Source: Campylobacterota bacterium (GTDB taxonomy: Bacteria > Campylobacterota > Campylobacteria > Campylobacterales > Sulfurimonadaceae). Taken from it: 64,000 nt of DNA. The stretch spans positions 624,286-688,285 of the forward strand of contig JBFMGG010000007.1 in the NCBI GenBank assembly GCA_040752835.1, written 5' to 3'. Positions 3,514 to 21,911 of this stretch are shown in pieces. Position 1 is the stretch's first letter. Each line of letters opens with the position of its first letter. Under the pieces are notes generated by a model. The model was not told the DNA's origin. It did not search any database and worked only from the letters and a program-made list of their open reading frames with translations. The position numbers and the translations under genes are program-made.

Positions 3514-3671
3514 AACAGCAAACCGACCTGAAAACACTGGCAGCATACGCAAAACGTCACGGCTACACCGTAGAGATCAAACACGATCATATCGTAGCGG
3601 CAAACAACAACGGAGTGATCCGAACCGGATCGTTGGCGACATTGAAAAAAGTTGCGGGGGGTGTGAAGTGA
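3510..3671 (+). CDS. Very small protein upstream of parA
   Basis: 53 residues. The ATGA overlap at 3510 links it to the preceding gene, and a GTGA overlap at 3668 to parA. The sequence (MKQQTDLKTLAAYAKRHGYT, then a beta-like VEIKHDHIVAANNNGVIRTG) resembles a small alpha/beta fold without a known name. The overlaps on both sides and the normal codon use argue that it is a real gene. Co-translation with parA suggests a partition-related or regulatory role, which is inference. Confidence 0.55.
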   Translation: MKQQTDLKTLAAYAKRHGYTVEIKHDHIVAANNNGVIRTGSLATLKKVAGGVK

Positions 3672-4318
3672 AAACCATCACCATCGCCCACTCCAAAGGC
3701 GGAGTATCCAAATCCACCCTTGCATGGAATCTCGCCATCGCATTGCAGATGAGCGGGTTGCGCGTAGCCCTTGCCGACATCGACGGCCAACAGCTCACGA
3801 TCAGCAAAACAGCTCAGGCGCGTATCGCTTCGGGGTACGCTCCGATCCATGTTTATACCGCTGTTACCATCGAGGAACTCACCGCGATCACGCAGAGCAC
3901 CGATCATGACATCACCATCATCGATGCGGGAGGGTATGACTACGACCTCGGACGGGTTGCGATCAGCATCGCCGATCGCGTCGTTGTACCAATCTCCGAA
4001 GATCCCACGGAGCTGCTCGGATTCGCATCGTTTCTCGGTGCATTGCGCGACGTATCCGAATACGCCCCTATCCCTCCGGTGATGATCGTGATTACCCGCG
4101 CTCATGCTCGGTCGAAATCGTTTATCGGGATCCGACAGGTAGCATCACTTTGGCCATCAGCGATTATCGCCGATACGGTTATGAGACGGCGCGCGGTGTA
4201 CTCCGCATCGATGGGGCACGGATTCGGAGTGACCGAACTCTCCGAACGACATCCGGATGCAGCAGATGAGATGTATCGACTCGCACGGGAGATTGTGGGT
4301 GGGGAGGTGGAGAGATGA
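3668..4318 (+). CDS. parA: ParA-type partition ATPase
   Basis: 216 residues. The deviant Walker A motif HSKGGVSKST (residues 8-17) carries both the signature and the catalytic lysine. DIDGQQ follows at ~37-42, and DITIIDAGGYD forms the Walker B region. This is the short ParA/MinD-superfamily form without an N-terminal HTH. It would bind ATP, coat the nucleoid and move ParB-bound DNA. The GTG start is supported by the GTGA overlap. Unusually, three genes separate it from parB at 5767, although all are linked by 4-bp overlaps. Its presence points to plasmid or phage-plasmid ancestry. Confidence 0.88.
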   Translation: MKTITIAHSKGGVSKSTLAWNLAIALQMSGLRVALADIDGQQLTISKTAQARIASGYAPIHVYTAVTIEELTAITQSTDHDITIIDAGGYDYDLGRVAISIADRVVVPISEDPTELLGFASFLGALRDVSEYAPIPPVMIVITRAHARSKSFIGIRQVASLWPSAIIADTVMRRRAVYSASMGHGFGVTELSERHPDAADEMYRLAREIVGGEVER

Positions 4319-4689
4319 AAACATCTTCACCCGATTATAAAAAGCTTTTTTACGAAGCTTGCAAAATACATACAGAGTTTTGGGTGCATCGGTATCTAAT
4401 GTCTAATGCAGAGGGCAGATGGGATGGATCAGAGAAAGCGGAAAAACATATCGCACTATGTGAATTTTATTTATCTTGTTTCGGGATCGACAAAGTTGAG
4501 GAATACGAAATTTTTGAGGCGGTGCATGACGCTACTCAGGAGCTAACAGATAGCCTTGATGAGCAAATCGGATTTCCGCTTAAAGGTCGTCCCGATTACG
4601 ACACCTTAGCGCCTAAGTTTTTCGATATTTTCCATGAGATAGCCATTAAAACTTTATTAAATATCAACACTGAGGAGCCACAATCATGA
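4315..4689 (+). CDS. Hypothetical acidic protein
   Basis: 124 residues, helical, with several aromatic residues and no recognised domain. It overlaps parA upstream and the DUF2786 gene downstream by 4 bp, so it is an integral member of the operon. No signal peptide or membrane segment is visible. Confidence 0.6.
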   Translation: MKTSSPDYKKLFYEACKIHTEFWVHRYLMSNAEGRWDGSEKAEKHIALCEFYLSCFGIDKVEEYEIFEAVHDATQELTDSLDEQIGFPLKGRPDYDTLAPKFFDIFHEIAIKTLLNINTEEPQS

Positions 4690-5408
4690 GCGATCCCAAA
4701 ATCATCGAACGGATAAAAAAGTTACTGGCTCTCAGCCTGAGCGATAACCCCTATGAGGCTAAATTAGCAGCACAAAAAGCGGTAGAGTTGATGGCATCAT
4801 ACGGTATCTCTGAAACGGATCTCGATAATAACCCGTTTGTCAGCGAGACATTCTGCTCACGACACTACTATAAACTCCCCGTATGGGTATCGACTCTTTG
4901 GGGGCAGTTAGGATGGGCGAGTGGATGTTTCGTTGTATATCAGCACGGAGCCAAATGTCGGGGCAAAAAAGCATCCGTAACCGTTGCCGGAAGAAAAGCA
5001 GATGTGGAGATTATGCGATACATGGGCGAGTACTTCGAGGATGAAATATACAAAAAAAGCGAAGAGTTCAAAAAGCAGTATAAGCGGCTAAAACCATCCG
5101 TCTATAATGAATACAAGCAAGGGCTTGGTATTGGCATATCACATCTAATCAAAAAGAGTCAGGACGAATTTTTCAAACATCACTCTGAAACAATGGGTAA
5201 AAGTCTTGTGCCTGTTGACACAAAACATGAAGAGGCACGAGAATATTTTGAAGAGTCAAATATGAAACCCCGCACGATCAAAAGGGATATGGATTCTCCA
5301 GCTCTATTAAAAGGGGTGATCGATGCAAGTGAGATCAGCATCAATAAAGGCGTTACCGGATCAAACCATAATACTCTCGCGTTAGAGCATAAGGAGCCAC
5401 AACCATGA
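4686..5408 (+). CDS. DUF2786 domain protein
   Basis: 240 residues. Residues ~5-45 match the DUF2786 pattern: I-x-R-I-K-K-L-L-A-L, then N-P-Y-E-A-x-L-A-x-x-K-A, then L-M-x-x-Y-G-I. The rest resembles the accompanying C-terminal domain (DUF7168 type) found in many phage and plasmid proteins. The biochemical function is unknown. It belongs to the parA-parB operon by ATGA overlaps on both sides. Confidence 0.75.
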   Translation: MSDPKIIERIKKLLALSLSDNPYEAKLAAQKAVELMASYGISETDLDNNPFVSETFCSRHYYKLPVWVSTLWGQLGWASGCFVVYQHGAKCRGKKASVTVAGRKADVEIMRYMGEYFEDEIYKKSEEFKKQYKRLKPSVYNEYKQGLGIGISHLIKKSQDEFFKHHSETMGKSLVPVDTKHEEAREYFEESNMKPRTIKRDMDSPALLKGVIDASEISINKGVTGSNHNTLALEHKEPQP

Positions 5409-5770
5409 ACCTAAATCTAAACAACGCAAACAAAAAAATGCTATCAACGCTTAACTATCTAAAAATGGATATTCAATCTCTCAATGACATCGAGGATCTC
5501 AGCGAAAACGATCGCGAATCGATTACCCGAATTTTAGAGAACGTCGATTCCATTATCGATACGGCAACAGAGCAAAGAGTATTCACTAAAAGAGAGGTCG
5601 TAGAGATCCTCGTGGCGAATAATAACAAGGTATTGAAATTGGTAGATCCTGATAAATATTTTGTCATTGAAGAGGAAAATGTACTCTGCAAACGTAAAAG
5701 TTTATTTACACGGGACAAAGTTATCAACGAATATACCTTTGATTACGTGATAGAGGAGGCGATGTCATGA
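5405..5770 (+). CDS. Hypothetical helical protein
   Basis: 121 residues. The N-terminal half is predicted alpha-helical and Asn/Leu/Ser-rich, possibly a short coiled coil. The C-terminal half is alpha/beta and charged. Family not recognised. It is coupled to both neighbours by ATGA overlaps and sits immediately before parB. Confidence 0.55.
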   Translation: MNLNLNNANKKMLSTLNYLKMDIQSLNDIEDLSENDRESITRILENVDSIIDTATEQRVFTKREVVEILVANNNKVLKLVDPDKYFVIEEENVLCKRKSLFTRDKVINEYTFDYVIEEAMS

Positions 5771-6621
5771 AAAAACCACCCATCAACCCCGACCTCCTCG
5801 CTTCCATAGCATCAGGAGCGGCACTGAAAACATCCGGTACTCAGTCCGGATCTTCTGATATCTCTTTAGATATCATTGATCCCAACCCGCATCAGCCCCG
5901 CATGGATTACGATCCTGAAAAGCTCAGAGCACTGGCCGACTCTATCGAACAGCATGGGCTGCTCCAGCCTATTGCTCTGCGACGAAACGGTGATCGATAC
6001 ACCATCATCGCCGGTCATACCCGCTTTGAGGCGCACAAGCTCCTCGGACGCGATACGATCCGCGCCAACATCATCGAAGCCTCCGACGATGATCTCGCCA
6101 TCCTTGCCATGATCGAGAACGTACAGCGTACCGATCTTCACCCTATCGAGATCCAGATCGCTATATCGCGCGAACCGTTCACATCGATGAGTGACGAAGA
6201 GATCGCGCAGATCCTCGGATACTCCAACGTAACAAAGGTGCGGAATATCCGCTCCATCAGCCGACTCATTCCGGAGGTACGTGAGCACCTGATCGCCAAC
6301 CGCCCAAAGATCGGAGTGGATCTCCTCGTCGAACTCCAAAAGTACCCTGAGCGGTTCCAGCTCGAAGTGTACCATGAGGTATTACGTGGGGAGAAAAACC
6401 GCTCCGATCTGCGTTCTACACTTTCGCAGTGGAATAAAATACAGCGGGATAAAGAGGCGCGGGAGCAATCCCAAAAACCGATCATGCCATTCAAGCGCGA
6501 CGATGAGGGCTACCATATCGAATGCGGTAAACTGCCCAAAAAAACCGTTAATGCTTTTGAGAAAGACCTCCTTGATCTTATGGTGCGTCACGGTATCCGT
6601 CCCGCTAAAAACCCACCCTAA
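5767..6621 (+). CDS. parB: ParB/Spo0J-type partition protein
   Basis: 284 residues. The ParB N-domain starts around residue 33 (LDIIDPNPHQPR), with the nucleotide-binding box GHTRFEAH at 83-90 and ENVQRTDLHPIE at 117-128. A helix-turn-helix follows (MSDEEIAQILGYS-N at 141-154). It should bind a centromere and work with the ParA encoded at 3668. The first arginine-box position is GHTR rather than the common GERR. Candidate targets are the 16-bp palindromes at 493-508 and 7051-7066 or the iterons at 2-122. Confidence 0.88.
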   Translation: MKKPPINPDLLASIASGAALKTSGTQSGSSDISLDIIDPNPHQPRMDYDPEKLRALADSIEQHGLLQPIALRRNGDRYTIIAGHTRFEAHKLLGRDTIRANIIEASDDDLAILAMIENVQRTDLHPIEIQIAISREPFTSMSDEEIAQILGYSNVTKVRNIRSISRLIPEVREHLIANRPKIGVDLLVELQKYPERFQLEVYHEVLRGEKNRSDLRSTLSQWNKIQRDKEAREQSQKPIMPFKRDDEGYHIECGKLPKKTVNAFEKDLLDLMVRHGIRPAKNPP

Positions 6622-7039
6622 ATTCGATTACGCATGTGCCGGTGATATTTTAGGGTTTACCTTTGCATCACCTCCGGAGATTCAGGAGATCCCATATCAT
6701 TTTGATTGCGGAGCGGTGATGTGTCCGGGTGATTTTCTTTTAGAAATACGCTCTATAAATACATCGGCTATGTACTCTTTTGGGTACAAGATATATGCAC
6801 CATCTGATCTTTGCTATCTCGGTATTGTAGAGATAGAAGGCAAACGGATCATACTGTTTGAAGCATACGTTGACGGAGTTAAAAAAGAACTCCCTTACCT
6901 TTGGTACTATGGTTATATCATCCATTCGTATGACGATGGAGATGAGTTTTTCTATCTTCTTGATAACCATACACCACGGGTAATTCGACATGACAAATCG
7001 GTGGTTATCCGCCGAAAAGATGAAAATACGTTAAAATAG
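6551..7039 (+). CDS. Hypothetical protein, start uncertain
   Basis: The reading frame downstream of parB encodes about 140 unambiguous residues rich in aromatic and acidic positions (for example WYYGYIIHSYDDGDEFFYLL), with no recognised domain. ATG 6551 lies inside the 3' end of parB and has no good ribosome-binding site. A GTG/ATG pair near 6716-6719 is the alternative, and an ATG at 6374 would overlap parB by 248 bp. The downstream portion is the reliable part. Confidence 0.5.
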   Translation: MLLRKTSLILWCVTVSVPLKTHPKFDYACAGDILGFTFASPPEIQEIPYHFDCGAVMCPGDFLLEIRSINTSAMYSFGYKIYAPSDLCYLGIVEIEGKRIILFEAYVDGVKKELPYLWYYGYIIHSYDDGDEFFYLLDNHTPRVIRHDKSVVIRRKDENTLK

Positions 7040-7050
7040 CCGGTAGATAA

Positions 7051-7066
7051 AATCCGCCGGCGGATC
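7051..7066. promoter_or_regulatory. 16-bp palindromic site, copy 2 (candidate parS)
   Basis: AATCCGCCGGCGGATC is the exact reverse complement of the 16-mer at 493-508. It lies in the short gap between the parB-distal gene and the membrane-protein cluster, ten bases before the next start codon. The position also fits an operator. Confidence 0.4.
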
Positions 7067-7075
7067 GGAGACAAA

Positions 7076-7648
7076 ATGACCCAAGATCAAAAAGACGAAG
7101 AACTCTACAAAGCATCACTGGAAGCTTTTTTCAATAATGAACTGGAAGCAGACAAAACGATCCTTGGACTATCGGTTGCGGCCATCGGATTCTTTATGGC
7201 ACTCTTTCTTAATAAAGATTTTCAGATCACAGAAATCATGTTCATCACTATCATCATAGCACTCATCTCTTTCCTTGCCGTTTCTTCCATGATTATGTTG
7301 ATTTTTATCCGAAATAAAAAGCAGATTCTACATATCATAGAAACCACAGGAGGGCTCAAAGAAGATCTTTTTCTTGACTTCTTGGATAAATGGAAATACT
7401 TGCCGTTTATCATAGGAATTATATGCAGTATAATTTTTACGCTATCATTGATATATGGAAAAATCAGCACAAAAGAGACCCCCATGGCAAAAGAAAAGAT
7501 AGAGAGACCTTCTCCAAAAGTTGAACGTGTGATATCAAAAGCACAGGAAAACAATAGCAGCGCCGGCATAAGCGGCCTTCAAGAAGCGAACAAAACGCCT
7601 CCTCCACCAACAGACTCAAATAAATCAGGAGAAACCGATGGCAAGTGA
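7076..7648 (+). CDS. Membrane protein with disordered SG-motif tail
   Basis: 190 residues. The N-terminus is acidic and cytoplasmic-looking (1-30), with three hydrophobic segments at about 30-45, 52-77 and 110-128. A Pro/Ser/Lys-rich disordered tail follows, ending SGETDGK. Within the tail, AGISGLQEANK matches a motif repeated twice in each of the next two small proteins. Its stop codon overlaps the next start (ATGGCAAGTGA). No known family is recognised. The shared motif suggests the proteins assemble with each other or with a common partner. Confidence 0.65.
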   Translation: MTQDQKDEELYKASLEAFFNNELEADKTILGLSVAAIGFFMALFLNKDFQITEIMFITIIIALISFLAVSSMIMLIFIRNKKQILHIIETTGGLKEDLFLDFLDKWKYLPFIIGIICSIIFTLSLIYGKISTKETPMAKEKIERPSPKVERVISKAQENNSSAGISGLQEANKTPPPPTDSNKSGETDGK

Positions 7649-7808
7649 CAACAGTAATAAACCGACCAATATAAATGAAGGAGTAAGCGGTATCGGTAAA
7701 TCCAACCGCCCTGATCCGCAAACAGGGTTTAGCGGCGTTGGAAGTGCTAACAAAGGCGGATCAGGCCAACAAACGACTAATCAATCAGGATCTAAAGATG
7801 GCAAATGA
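7638..7808 (+). CDS. Small disordered protein, SG-motif paralogue 1
   Basis: 56 residues, almost entirely Asn/Ser/Gly/Lys/Gln with no hydrophobic core, so probably unstructured. It carries two copies of a motif: GVSGIGKSN and GFSGVGSAN. It overlaps the end of the upstream membrane protein by 11 bp and overlaps its paralogue at 7798 in the same way. The junction sequence GATGGCAA(G/A)TGA is duplicated at both overlaps, which shows tandem duplication. Its function is unknown. Confidence 0.6.
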   Translation: MASDNSNKPTNINEGVSGIGKSNRPDPQTGFSGVGSANKGGSGQQTTNQSGSKDGK

Positions 7809-7947
7809 TAACAGCAAAAAAGGCACAAATACCAATGACGGGATGAGTGGAATCACTAAAGCCAACCTCGAACGCGGTATGAGCGGAGTAACCAAATCAA
7901 ACCAATCCGGAAATCAAAACCATTCCGGAGAAAAACCAAAATCATAG
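7798..7947 (+). CDS. Small disordered protein, SG-motif paralogue 2
   Basis: 49 residues, a diverged duplicate of the preceding gene. MANDNSKKGTN resembles MASDNSNKPTN, and the motif appears as GMSGITKAN and GMSGVTKSN. Translation is coupled to the upstream paralogue through ATGGCAAATGA. The paired conservation of start region, motif and gene overlap supports both as real protein-coding genes despite their length. Confidence 0.6.
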   Translation: MANDNSKKGTNTNDGMSGITKANLERGMSGVTKSNQSGNQNHSGEKPKS

Positions 7948-7955
7948 GAACCGGC

Positions 7956-8291
7956 ATGAGCAGAGTCATCAGAACCATACGCTATCATAACGAGCTTGTT
8001 GTGGCCTATATTGTATCGATGATTACGGCTGTAAGCACATCCGCCTACTATGGTCTATTCCCTATCGACATTGATACGGTTACAGGGGTAATGAAAACAT
8101 TTATGATTGGCGGAGTTTTTTTTATCCCGTTTATCATAACCGCTATTATTTCATCAGAAATGAGATCCCGAAATAGTCTTACCGACTATATGCAGGCATG
8201 GGCTGATATCTCGATGTTTTGGATTTTATTCTTGGGGCTCACCCAGACGATCCTGAGCAAGTCCCCCAATTTTTTTGCCATGCTGTCGTAG
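7956..8291 (+). CDS. Small membrane protein of the SG-motif cluster
   Basis: 111 residues with three predicted transmembrane helices (about 16-34, 47-65 and 84-103) and a short basic N-terminus. It starts eight bases after the second SG-motif gene and is the last plus-strand gene before a terminator hairpin. No known family. A holin-like or small channel role is conceivable but unsupported. Confidence 0.6.
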   Translation: MSRVIRTIRYHNELVVAYIVSMITAVSTSAYYGLFPIDIDTVTGVMKTFMIGGVFFIPFIITAIISSEMRSRNSLTDYMQAWADISMFWILFLGLTQTILSKSPNFFAMLS

Positions 8292-8305
8292 CCTATACGC
8301 TACGA
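8286..8305. terminator. Hairpin between convergent genes
   Basis: TCGTAGC-CTATAC-GCTACGA forms a perfect 7-bp stem overlapping the stop of the upstream plus-strand gene. T-rich sequence follows on the plus strand. It separates the plus-strand operon from the minus-strand phage genes. Confidence 0.6.
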
Positions 8306-8311
8306 CTTTAA

Positions 8312-8659
8312 TTATATGTCTAACAATTCAACACTTTGCCCTACAAGCTCATGAGAACAATCATGCAAAAATTCTACTTTGCCATCATTTACAAATGAAT
8401 GGCATCTATGTATGGTTCGATCCTCCCCCCATGGAAACTCGGTTAGTATGCTTGGTTTAAGAGTCGGTTTTTCTGTATCTCCATTCCATGACCAATTATT
8501 CGTGTTTTGTCGTGATCCTGATAATTGAACAGGGATATACCGATCTTGTAACGCCTTAAATTCCAATGGAAATTTTAATCGCACATGGGTTGCATCATGG
8601 ACTTCGCATTGAATAAACCCGATATCATTGGGATTTTTTTTAAGAGGTATTGCCTTCAT
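8312..8659 (-). CDS. DUF6527 family protein
   Basis: 115 residues. The C-terminal half shows the family pattern: W-S-W-N-G-D, then P-T-L-K-P-S-I-L, then C-H-S-F-V-N-D-G-K-V-E-F-L-H-D-C-S-H. His/Cys positions could bind a metal. Such proteins are common in phage structural regions, but their role is unknown. It overlaps the portal gene upstream by 4 bp, so it belongs to the same phage transcript. Confidence 0.7.
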   Translation of the reverse strand: MKAIPLKKNPNDIGFIQCEVHDATHVRLKFPLEFKALQDRYIPVQLSGSRQNTNNWSWNGDTEKPTLKPSILTEFPWGEDRTIHRCHSFVNDGKVEFLHDCSHELVGQSVELLDI

Positions 8660-17614: not shown

Positions 17615-18778
17615 TCACTCCTGCCCCTTCTTGTAAATCAGTTTTTCGATCCGCTTTTTCTCAACTCCCCCCGAACTATCGATCACATGGGCACTGACCC
17701 CCTGAGTTTTATCCGGCAGATACTCGAACAGCACGATGATCGCACGCTTAGACCCCCCGTCCCCCTTGAAATACCGCAGCATTTTTTTAACGAGGCGCTT
17801 GGCCTTGTCGTCGAATTCGAGATAGATTTCGTCCGGATCGGATACGGTAGCGGCGATTTCGTCGATATAGTAATGCCGATCTCGTTTGGTCAGCTTGCTG
17901 TGACCGCTTCCGGCGGTGAAGAGGCTGTCATCGACGACCATCGGGTCGCCCACCCTGTCCACGTAGGTATCACCGGCTTTAACCCCCAGCGCTCCGTAGA
18001 ACCGTTTTTTGAGCTGCTCTTCGCTGAGACCGGCGAATTCTTTGCGCCGGGCATCGGAGAGTTTCGGAAGCGACGACAGGCTTGCGTTCAGATCGATCTT
18101 CGAGAGTTTGGAGACGCGATTCCCGGCTCCGGGATTGTAGGACCAGTCCGGGGTCGCGATGTTGTCGCCCGGAGGTTCGGAGACTTTCCAGCCCCGACGC
18201 TCGATCTGGGCGCGGCTCCAGGCCCGTGCCTGGCATTGACACCCCCATGCGTTCGGCGGGTAGTTGGTCTGCCACCACGGATCGGTACGGGGCAATACGG
18301 TGCCGTTTTTGGCCAGATGGTTCATGCGCGGGTGTTCCGACAGTCCTCCGACGTACTGCAGATATTCCAGACCGCTGCGCGTCTGCTGCTCATAACGGGC
18401 GGTAGCATGGGCGACACGGGTATTGGTTTTGAAGATCGTTCGGAGCCGGTTGCCGTCGATGATCGTCTCCTTGACCTCTCCGGTTTTCGGATTGACGATC
18501 TCCTGACGTCCCCACCACCCTTTTTTCTCCAGTGTCGGGATGATCTGCTTCTTCCAGTCCTCAAAGCGGGTCCCGTTCGCCATCGCTTCGGTGATCGATG
18601 AGTGGATGTCGCTGAGCAGATCGAGACGGGTGACTTTGGCCACTGTGAAGGCTTTGTGGTGCGCGTCATGCATCATCTCGTTATAATCGAACGAGAGCTT
18701 GTACCCTTTGGAACGGAGGTACTCGATCGCTTCGCGCGGTTTCAGGCCGAATGCGAACGATGGTTTGGGGAGGCTCAT
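17615..18778 (-). CDS. Head morphogenesis protein (Mu gpF / MuF) fused to a PBECR-type nuclease domain
   Basis: 387 residues. Residues ~1-230 are a MuF minor head protein: RVAHATARYEQQT, then YVGGLSEHPRMNHLAKNGTV, then W-W-Q-T-N-Y-P-P-N-A-W-G-C-Q-C. Residues ~255-387 are an extra domain with KRDRHYYIDEIAATVSDPDE and a beta-rich end, resembling the phage barnase-EndoU-colicin-RelE (PBECR2) fold. MuF proteins enter the virion, so the tail domain could be an ejected or scaffold-associated RNase. The gene overlaps the portal gene by ATGA. Confidence 0.75.
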   Translation of the reverse strand: MSLPKPSFAFGLKPREAIEYLRSKGYKLSFDYNEMMHDAHHKAFTVAKVTRLDLLSDIHSSITEAMANGTRFEDWKKQIIPTLEKKGWWGRQEIVNPKTGEVKETIIDGNRLRTIFKTNTRVAHATARYEQQTRSGLEYLQYVGGLSEHPRMNHLAKNGTVLPRTDPWWQTNYPPNAWGCQCQARAWSRAQIERRGWKVSEPPGDNIATPDWSYNPGAGNRVSKLSKIDLNASLSSLPKLSDARRKEFAGLSEEQLKKRFYGALGVKAGDTYVDRVGDPMVVDDSLFTAGSGHSKLTKRDRHYYIDEIAATVSDPDEIYLEFDDKAKRLVKKMLRYFKGDGGSKRAIIVLFEYLPDKTQGVSAHVIDSSGGVEKKRIEKLIYKKGQE

Positions 18779-20160
18779 TCCTCTTCCTCTTCAAACTCCG
18801 CTTCGGCGGTGCCGAGGATATAGGAGCTTTGGAGCGCAATGTCCATCGTCTCCTGGAGCTCGGAGATATCCATCTGCGGATAGGCGGCATGGAGGCGGTC
18901 GATAGCCTCTTCGAAACTTTCCGCGCCGTCTATGATTTCGGCGATTTGAGTTTGAAATGACAGTGCGATCGTTTTGAGATCGATCAGACCGGAAAGCGTA
19001 TCGGTATCGGAGATCGGCCGGGTAGCACTGAGCGAGATCAGCTTTTGCGCGAATGACCGGTTGGCGAGCGGTGCAGGAGACGAAGCCTCTTCGACAGTGA
19101 TGTTGTAGGTCTTTTCGATGTACTCTTTGGTCGGGCGGTATCCCATGTTCGCTATCTTCTCGTCGCGCTCGGCCAGCTTGTAATTCGGGTCGTCCTTGTC
19201 CTTGAGCGATACCTCTACGGTGTCAGGGAGGTGGTTTATCTCGACGAACATCTGAACGACTTTTTCGATCAGGGAGATGGTCATGTTTTCGTCCGCCATC
19301 GCAATGTCCTCGCGCACATCGTTATGCACCTCTGCGGCGGCGTAGCTCCCGCCTTTGACGTTGCCGGTCAGATTCCCGCCGAGGACCGCTTCGCGGATCT
19401 GGTCATCGAGGTATGCCGTGATCTTGTCGAAATCCCCCGTTTTATCCGCAGTCTTTATCTCGATCTCTTCGTCATGATCGATCACCGCAGCGTCTCCGGA
19501 AAGCATCGCGTAGATCTCGTCCGCCATCGTGTCCTTGTCACCGTCGGTCTTACCGATCGCCCAGGGGACGCCGTATTTTTCGAGAAATTTGACCCAGAAC
19601 TCCAGCGAAGCGTTTTTGAACTTGACGTACCAGAAGAGCGATTCGGCCAAAGGTTTCCCCATCGGTCGATGGTATTTGTCCTCGTAGAGCGCCGCGACTG
19701 CTTTATACGGTGGAATATTCTCCGGGGCTCCGTGTGGGGCGAAGTAAAGGATCTGATTCTTAACAACGAACTGCTCGTAAGGGCGTTCAATGAGCCGTGG
19801 CAACAGTAGCGAGTCCTTCTCGATCCAGTTGATCTCGAAAACGCTTGCACCCTGGAACGGGGCATCGAGGATCTTTCTCATCGTACCGTGGTCGAACGTA
19901 TCGTAAAGCAGATCGGCTTTCCCCTGATCCTTGCCTGTGAAAAAAATCTCCTTCTTCAGAGTAGCCGCCTTACGGCTTCCGAGCGCACTTATCACGGTGG
20001 CATCGCGTTCGATCCGGTCAAGCTCTTCGCGCTCCAGCCACTCCTTGCGAACCGGAAGATCATCCATGACGCTTTGGAGTAGGTCCACGGCCGGAGCGGC
20101 GGCGGAGGCTCTGGGCTTTGTCTGTTTTGCTGCAAAGAGGTTCTTAAATAGTCGTTTCAT
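18775..20160 (-). CDS. Mu-type portal protein (gp29-like, DUF935)
   Basis: 461 residues with features of the Mu portal family: DLLYDTFDHGTMRKILDAPF, QGASVFEINW, and the GNLTGNVKGGSYAAAEVHND region preceding VREDIAMADE. It forms the ring at the head vertex. ATG 20160 has GGAG at correct spacing; ATG 20166 abuts the SD. The C-terminal third, where a helper sequence encodes ALSFQTQIAE, contains a 20/21 match to the prophage end repeat. Translation is coupled to terL and the MuF gene. Confidence 0.88.
   Translation of the reverse strand: MKRLFKNLFAAKQTKPRASAAAPAVDLLQSVMDDLPVRKEWLEREELDRIERDATVISALGSRKAATLKKEIFFTGKDQGKADLLYDTFDHGTMRKILDAPFQGASVFEINWIEKDSLLLPRLIERPYEQFVVKNQILYFAPHGAPENIPPYKAVAALYEDKYHRPMGKPLAESLFWYVKFKNASLEFWVKFLEKYGVPWAIGKTDGDKDTMADEIYAMLSGDAAVIDHDEEIEIKTADKTGDFDKITAYLDDQIREAVLGGNLTGNVKGGSYAAAEVHNDVREDIAMADENMTISLIEKVVQMFVEINHLPDTVEVSLKDKDDPNYKLAERDEKIANMGYRPTKEYIEKTYNITVEEASSPAPLANRSFAQKLISLSATRPISDTDTLSGLIDLKTIALSFQTQIAEIIDGAESFEEAIDRLHAAYPQMDISELQETMDIALQSSYILGTAEAEFEEEEE
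18944..18964 (+). repeat. Internal copy of the prophage end repeat
   Basis: Within the portal gene the plus strand reads ATTTGAG-TTTGAAATGACAGT, identical at 20 of 21 positions to the right-end repeat at 37642-37662. A second transposase-type or regulatory binding site inside the element is possible. The coding strand still reads a normal portal sequence. Confidence 0.6.
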
Positions 20161-20162
20161 TA

Positions 20163-21911
20163 TCATCTCCTTCGGGGTGCGTGCCGTGCCGCATGGTTGC
20201 GCCGGTTGGTTCGAGGCGCGGACACTTTCTGTTTTTTGGCGAGTTTGCTGAGACGGTAGGCTCCGATCAGTCCATCTGGCGCGTCATCGTTATTCCCTTC
20301 CGGGAACTCCTCGAGCTGGTCAATCAGCGTCACCTGATCCTCGTGCAGCAGGATCTGTCCGTTTTCGATCGGGAGTTCCAACTCCTCGATGCGAAGCTCC
20401 TTGTTGTCGCTGTTGTGAATACCGCGCAGCGGCATGTGGACCCCCTGCTCGAACGCCTCCTTGAGAATGAACGCCTTGAGGTGGAACTGTCCTCCGTTGG
20501 TTTCCACGCCGAACACGGCACATCGGTAGCGCTGCTGGTACTCGACGATTTTACGGACGATATCGAGCGATCCGATCACCTCGTTATACGACTCGATGAC
20601 GTACCCTTTCATCGCTTGCTCGTCGACGCCGAAGATCGTGATATTCGTGAAATCGCTTTTTTTGCCGTTTCCGGCCGGATCGCACCATCCGAAAATACGC
20701 AGCTTTCTATGCGATGGCAGCGACCGGTAAAAGTGGATGGACTCGCGTTTGAATTTCTGGGTTTCCGAACTGGGGTTGTTTTGGAATTCTTTGGAAAACG
20801 ATCTCGGCGCTTCGGAGCGCTTGCGCATCAGCGTCTCGATCGGCACCGCATCGGGCCACAGTACGCGTGCTCCGGCGTCCATATCGGGCTTGTTGGCCAG
20901 ATAGTGGTCGTGCGCCGCTTCGAGGCCGTGGCGCTTGTAGATCACAGCGTACTGATCCCATAGATCCATCCGCTCTGGGAATGTGACGATCGCCCGGAAC
21001 GTTTTGGGGTTCCAGAACCCCATTTTCAGTTTGCGCGCGAGAACCGAATCGCGATGGAGAACGGTGCCGATGTAGAGGATATCAAGGCTACCGTCGACCG
21101 CGCCCAGGTTGGCGACCGCCTCGTCCAGCCACGCTTCGAGCTTGTCCCGCTGATCCCGGCTTCGGACGTTTTCATCGTTTTCGAGATCGTCGATGATCGA
21201 TAGATCCGGACGCCATACGCCGTGCTTGATACCCCGCACCCGTTTACCGGATCCGAAACCCTTGACCCGGATTCCGTTACAGGTAACGATATCTCCGACG
21301 CGCCATACCCGCCCTATTCCGGTCGCGTGCGGGAAGTCGGCTTTGAGGTTGTCGTTTTCGGTGAGCTCGGCCTTGATCGCTTCGATCAACGTCTCGGTCA
21401 GCTCGATCGCATCGGAGAAGATCGTGATGAAGTGCTTGAGGTCGTTGACGATACACCAGATAACGAATACAACGGAGACATCGGTCGATTTACCGTGACC
21501 GCGCGGTGCGGCAATGGCGAACTTTTCTCCGACCAGCGTACCGCCTCCGTTTGCAAGCGGAATGTCGACCGAAGCGGTGAGCCGTTTGTCACAAATACGG
21601 TGGTAGACTGATTCGAGCTGCTCCTGGAGCTCGGATTTGCCCGGAAGGTAGTAATAATGCGGAAAGTAGGTCGTCCGGAAATAGTGGAAGTCGCAGCGCT
21701 GACGCTGGATCCGCTCATCGCGCTGCTCGACCGGGAGAGTCGAGTTGGATCGTATCGTATCGCGCAGATCCTCGGTAAAACCGTTTAGCCATTTGATGTA
21801 TTCACGGCGAGTAAGGCGCTGCGCCATCCGCTCGCTGTGGCCATCATCCAACAGCTCCGCCTTGGTATCGGCTAAGAGGCGGCGGAGTTCTTCTTTGTCA
21901 AATAGCGACAT
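20163..21911 (-). CDS. terL: Terminase large subunit (Mu gp28-like)
   Basis: 582 residues. The ATPase Walker A is AAPRGHGKSTDVS, a Walker B-type DLSIIDDLENDE follows, and the C-terminal nuclease half has the acidic residues in FGWCDPAGNGKKSDF and VFGVETNGGQF. It powers headful DNA packaging into the procapsid. The start overlaps the end of terS, and the C-terminus is unusually basic (Arg-rich, ending near PRRR). Confidence 0.9.
   Translation of the reverse strand: MSLFDKEELRRLLADTKAELLDDGHSERMAQRLTRREYIKWLNGFTEDLRDTIRSNSTLPVEQRDERIQRQRCDFHYFRTTYFPHYYYLPGKSELQEQLESVYHRICDKRLTASVDIPLANGGGTLVGEKFAIAAPRGHGKSTDVSVVFVIWCIVNDLKHFITIFSDAIELTETLIEAIKAELTENDNLKADFPHATGIGRVWRVGDIVTCNGIRVKGFGSGKRVRGIKHGVWRPDLSIIDDLENDENVRSRDQRDKLEAWLDEAVANLGAVDGSLDILYIGTVLHRDSVLARKLKMGFWNPKTFRAIVTFPERMDLWDQYAVIYKRHGLEAAHDHYLANKPDMDAGARVLWPDAVPIETLMRKRSEAPRSFSKEFQNNPSSETQKFKRESIHFYRSLPSHRKLRIFGWCDPAGNGKKSDFTNITIFGVDEQAMKGYVIESYNEVIGSLDIVRKIVEYQQRYRCAVFGVETNGGQFHLKAFILKEAFEQGVHMPLRGIHNSDNKELRIEELELPIENGQILLHEDQVTLIDQLEEFPEGNNDDAPDGLIGAYRLSKLAKKQKVSAPRTNRRNHAARHAPRRR

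Follow-up and report, generated by a model that had tools for sequence, protein, structure and literature searches.

The locus considered here raises the question of why a short motif is repeated in two very small proteins of disordered type and in the larger protein encoded immediately upstream of them. The window (the whole stretch of DNA analysed, 64,000 nucleotides) places the two small genes, S1 and S2, between two ORFs, MP1 and MP2, both of which are hydrophobic, and the original prediction viewed the four as a cluster sharing a new motif. The features on which the analysis draws are as follows.

7076 to 7648, + strand: MP1, a 190-residue protein with three predicted transmembrane (TM) helices (residues about 28-46, 60-78 and 109-127) and a 63-residue C-terminal tail carrying one motif
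7484 to 7648, + strand: the tail unit of MP1, from an in-frame internal ATG (MAKEK...DGK), with AAAAGAG upstream as a weak Shine-Dalgarno sequence
7565 to 7591, + strand: motif copy 1, GISGLQEAN, within the MP1 tail
7638 to 7808, + strand: S1, a 56-residue disordered-type protein with an AGGAG Shine-Dalgarno sequence, its start overlapping the MP1 stop
7680 to 7706 and 7725 to 7751, + strand: the S1 motifs GVSGIGKSN and GFSGVGSAN
7798 to 7947, + strand: S2, a 49-residue disordered-type protein with an AGGA Shine-Dalgarno sequence, its start overlapping the S1 stop
7840 to 7866 and 7876 to 7902, + strand: the S2 motifs GMSGITKAN and GMSGVTKSN
7956 to 8291, + strand: MP2, a 111-residue hydrophobic ORF, adjacent and in the same direction, outside the conserved module
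8285 to 8306, + strand: a terminator-like hairpin at the end of the + strand gene run, from a consensus scan only and within the range of shuffled sequences

The 2.13-Mb genome contains five matches to the pattern G-h-S-G-h-x-x-[SA]-N, all on the same strand and within 7565-7902, and none to the reversed control pattern. When the residues of the three tails were shuffled 100,000 times, the mean was 0.0016 motifs against the five observed, so that the motif is not random low-complexity sequence; it is real, and it recurs in relatives. The proposal that S1 and S2 are a tandem duplication with two motifs each was borne out (alignment score 103, reached by 0 of 2000 shuffles), as was the presence of one further copy in the tail of the upstream membrane protein, and the overlap string GATGGCAA(G/A)TGA was indeed found at both junctions, at 7637-7648 and again at 7797-7808. 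Thus, the view that membrane protein and small proteins share a conserved motif stands. What it missed is that the small genes are copies of the MP1 tail: S1 aligns with that tail, from the Met at 7484, over its whole length from first Met to final Gly-Lys (score 68, 0 of 2000 shuffles). Given this homology and that between S1 and S2, the locus holds one unit in triplicate, once fused to the membrane protein and twice free. As judged from its sequence, it is not a set of four equal genes but one three-TM protein with a disordered tail, followed by two tandem genes for free tails. The motif is indeed confined to MP1, S1 and S2. MP2 lacks it, is absent from the relatives' loci and has no credible relative among 228 genomes of the family, in which the remaining matches (E 0.005-0.009) contain internal stops; this ORF, counted as a member of the original cluster, was thus rejected as a component and is regarded as an orphan neighbour.

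That the small ORFs are conserved in relatives, a point on which the original prediction depended, is indicated by the closest pair. The segment NLERGMSGVTKSNQ is identical in S2 of the window and in the small protein of genome G067, with 7 of its 14 codons differing and 8 synonymous changes, and dN/dS for the pair is ~0.25. The profile of the small unit matches only three of the 228 family genomes, all of which hold an MP1 of the window clade, and in the genomes searched these ORFs occur only beside MP1. S1 and S2 are thus genuine genes, tied to MP1 and, by this measure, under purifying selection.

Relatives of MP1 were sought in the genomes of the family, 200 at first and then all 228. The protein is sporadic, being present in seven of the 228, and its closest relatives are in G067 (66% identity) and G011 (41%), where motif-bearing MP1 tails are followed by one or two small ORFs with the same motif. 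G129 has three small ORFs downstream with SASGL..SS-type motifs. G099, G352 (Sulfurospirillum arcachonense) and a Maribacter MAG carry two ..NG[IV]..L[NS]P motifs in the MP1 tail itself, and no separate small gene is evident at these three loci. In a remoter set, made up of G162, G180 and five genomes from a second family in the order, the motifs are DG.NIP..P, G.NIPP.P or QDGVSSP.M. Profile comparison joined the window clade to G162/G180 (A6-A5; 97%, E 1.2e-10) and G162/G180 to the other family of the order (A5-A7; 93%, E 3.4e-7), the direct comparison of the window clade with that other family (A6-A7) being weaker at 73%. The proteins of Hymenobacter and Acuticoccus plasmids are linked to MP1 through G162 only, and a Vibrio plasmid encodes a tail-less relative of the Maribacter protein. 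On these comparisons we count the window clade and the G162/G180 tier as one family and treat the remaining relatives as probable members. A search of 50,697 phage records yielded no relative, and neither did scans of 2.9 million viral contigs by pattern and by protein; tandem-motif DNA patterns were likewise absent from the viral contigs, and the MP1 of the window itself has no relative among the phages, plasmids and viral contigs searched. Matches at L012, L018-L031 and L049 were discarded as spurious, owing to weak scores, stops or partial length.

In a number of these relatives the tail is not fused to the membrane protein. MP1 stops 1-8 residues after TM3 in the split forms and a small disordered ORF starts there, such that some relatives carry the tail unit solely as a separate gene beside a tail-less MP1. 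G180, which is 52% identical to the fused G162, illustrates the transition, as its stop overlaps the ATG of the small gene at the point where G162 has an internal ATG. Indeed an in-frame ATG or GTG directly follows TM3 in all eight fused homologues, and in seven of the eight a Shine-Dalgarno core lies 3-12 nt 5' of it (for example AAAGGAAGAAAAA-ATG, AAGAAGGAACCAACA-GTG and AGAGGAAAAAACC-ATG). From the encoded residues and the codon usage nearby, such a core would be expected in 2.7 of the eight, and synonymous recoding gave P = 0.0017 for the seven observed (0.005 without one near-duplicate). At other in-frame start-like codons of the same genes the core was found in 1 of 53 cases (Fisher 1.4e-7 against the post-TM3 starts). 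The combination of Shine-Dalgarno sequence and start extends to the Bacteroidota homologue L035, and one homologue uses GTG. The exception among the eight is the MP1 of the window, whose internal ATG is preceded by AAAAGAG only and which is then followed by two free copies whose ribosome-binding sites are good. No consistent signal of an internal promoter before the tail was seen across the homologues. Most fused relatives very probably make a free tail from the internal start; neither this start, with its Shine-Dalgarno sequence within MP1, nor the existence of the tail as a separate gene only had been recognized in the original prediction.

The AlphaFold model of MP1 (mean pLDDT 59.5) contains helices at residues 3-45, 52-89 and 109-132, followed by a disordered tail (pLDDT 34-42). 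Foldseek returned no significant match and a sequence search of solved structures found none; the resemblance to the NINJ1 and DgkA folds was ignored (E > 1). Lys and Arg together reach a density of 0.06 in loop 1 against 0.20 in loop 2; with three spans, the positive-inside rule would then place loop 2 in the cytosol and the MP1 tail outside. The free tails, on inspection, have no signal peptide and should therefore be cytosolic. Thus, the tail of MP1 may be periplasmic and the free tails cytosolic, an arrangement that complicates contact between tails: either TM3 does not span the membrane, or bound and free tails occupy opposite sides of it.

The element that houses the module in the window contains head, terminase, portal, tail-sheath and baseplate genes together with ParA/ParB, from which we infer a Mu-like prophage, and the module sits between parB and a portal gene. 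In most relatives it is found isolated in chromosomes or plasmids, in many cases beside genes associated with biological conflict. A type IIG restriction-modification (R-M) gene lies about 10 nt upstream of the module, or overlaps it, in G489 and G503; a C-terminal remnant of such a gene is upstream in G359 and G264; and in Hymenobacter an MmeI-type IIG gene lies 12 nt upstream. G011 has a KAP NTPase matching PADLOC PDC-S49 20 nt downstream, plus AbiE, and G067 has TmtA-like, HEPN and AlbA_2 genes upstream. It should be emphasized, however, that the split relatives adjoining R-M genes belong to the remoter set, that no defence neighbour is evident at the loci of G099, G129, G162, G180, G352 and G593, and that no single protein is common to the neighbourhoods compared. 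The frequent proximity of the module to conflict or defence genes is suggestive only.

The closest precedent for this organization is the Rpn intragenic toxin-antitoxin system, in which an internal start also gives the variable C-terminal part of RpnL as a separate product, further copies of the small protein occur as downstream genes and the genes cluster with defence genes (PMC10327210). RpnS blocks the toxic RpnL, and RpnP2L, encoded on a plasmid, confers protection against certain phages (PMC10327210). The MP1 module shares with Rpn downstream extra copies, variants by loss or fusion, repeats in the tail, sporadic and mobile occurrence and, in several relatives, proximity to defence genes, and most fused relatives have a probable internal start for the C-terminal part as well. 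The proteins, however, are unrelated. In Rpn a PD-(D/E)XK nuclease (RpnL) is paired with a folded helical dimer (RpnS), whereas MP1 is a three-TM protein and its tail is disordered; scans of Pfam, NCBIfam, PADLOC and PHROGs revealed no Rpn nuclease domain in MP1, and no sequence relation between the two systems was found. As it lacks this domain MP1 is not a member of Rpn, and the claim is limited to 'works like'. SLATT and 2TM effectors of CBASS-like systems are also small helical membrane proteins of conflict systems, but the scores do not support membership (G099 against NCBIfam SLATT_1, 18.3 bits, under the cut-off of 41; G359 against PADLOC 2TM, E 0.0036, below the cut-off), no SLATT match was reported for the MP1 of the window, and no cyclase, SAVED or SLOG partner was seen near MP1.

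By analogy with Rpn we favour, tentatively and without claiming that it is probable, a reading in which MP1 and its tail copies form a mobile two-product module, a membrane effector under the control of free tails. The architecture, a three-TM protein whose tail also occurs as free proteins, is well supported by the comparisons above; the toxicity of MP1, the antitoxin action of the tails and the role in defence are what we infer from it. Full-length MP1 would be a membrane-active, growth-inhibiting effector. Free tails, in excess through strong translation starts, would bind MP1 and keep it inactive or, alternatively, would compete with the MP1 tail for a motif-mediated oligomer contact. Phage infection or another stress would shift the ratio of MP1 to tails, and the MP1 so released would damage the membrane and stop the infection; a resident prophage might carry the module to exclude other phages. 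No curated family matched MP1 or the S proteins above cut-off in Pfam, NCBIfam, PADLOC or PHROGs scans, and targeted literature searches turned up no described family of this kind. It is possible, but we think it doubtful, that it represents a widespread and undescribed gene-within-gene class devoted to anti-phage defence, in which a three-TM effector is accompanied by free disordered tail copies (from an internal start, a split gene or tandem duplicates) whose motif changes with the clade (SG..AN, NG..LNP, DG.NIP..P, QDGVSSP.M). If the Rpn-like reading is right, the idea of an intragenic regulator, known until now from a nuclease and its folded antitoxin, would extend to membrane proteins with disordered tails, over Campylobacterota-type genomes, Bacteroidota and perhaps Proteobacteria. 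The signature would be recognizable, namely a three-TM protein, a Shine-Dalgarno sequence and start just after TM3 and a motif-bearing tail repeated downstream, in proteins otherwise annotated as hypothetical and beside small genes that are easily missed.

It could be argued that nothing in the module is toxic and that the free tails are simply additional building blocks, the motif assembling MP1 with several tails. The motif is paired in most tails and small proteins, with two to five copies at a locus; where the MP1 tail carries two motifs (G099, G352 and Maribacter) there are no extra S genes, and where it carries one (the window, G067, G011 and G129) there are, as would suit complementary subunits. 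Cas10d/Cas11d, in which a Cascade subunit arises from an in-frame internal start within the large-subunit gene, provides a documented precedent for such a second product (cited in PMC10327210), although Cas11 is a folded subunit and both proteins and pathway differ from those of the MP1 module. As assembly alone leaves the frequent defence or mobile context unexplained, we consider this explanation unlikely, if worthy of attention. A motif of this kind, short, embedded in disordered sequence and conserved while its flanks drift, might instead, in line with the common partner proposed in the original prediction, dock a host or phage protein, with the free tails acting as soluble competitors or adaptors, and its subtypes do change with clade as if tracking different partners. 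The module, however, is seldom found and travels between hosts on its own, such that the partner would need to be a widespread protein, and the neighbourhoods share none; docking to a third partner is in our judgement rather improbable.

The position of the window module between parB and a portal gene also accommodates an accessory prophage membrane protein acting in lysis or superinfection exclusion, with no toxin-antitoxin logic. This we regard as quite improbable, as the phage records and viral contigs contain no relative and most relatives are in chromosomes or plasmids; the holin matches that might favour it are weak and not significant (phrog_4325, E 0.53 only; BFVD matches likewise), and a phage holin was rejected as an identity for MP1. 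Short repeats rich in Gly, Asn and Ser that are common to a membrane protein and its neighbours, and the KAP NTPase downstream in G011, recall functional-amyloid signalling of the BASS type, in which the tails would nucleate each other and MP1 would serve as membrane effector. What defines BASS families, however, is a motif common to Bell-domain and NLR proteins (PMC8086366), neither of which was present among the scanned neighbours; the N terminus of the G011 KAP protein is without the motif, and the tails and S proteins match no Pfam or PHROGs model. Amyloid signalling is thus very improbable indeed.

Several minor observations concern the surroundings of MP1 loci. In the window, genes for ParA-like and ParB-like proteins occupy 3668-6621, in the early region of the prophage, as in phage-plasmids, and a DUF6527 protein (phrog_3362) is encoded on the opposite strand directly after the module (8312-8659). 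There are two unlike portal genes, one P22-like (phrog_156/PF16510; 8656-10491) and the other (phrog_113; 18775-20166) near terminase and minor head genes, which suggests a mosaic or the remnant of a second phage. At the left edge (18-239) there is a short tandem repeat, which reads PPFCRFRFFSYRHFV in one of its frames. At locus L057 a protein kinase gene (5702-7120; PADLOC Stk2/PD-T4-6/mad6-like) has a type IIG R-M gene on one side and a duplicate of the C-terminal end of that gene on the other, after which come MP1 and the small gene; the arrangement looks like an insertion by recombination at the 3' end of the R-M gene. Near the MP1 loci of L056, L057 and L059 there are, in addition, proteins that end, beyond a TM segment, in FSLQKTARKNSI[VI]P tails of near-identical sequence.
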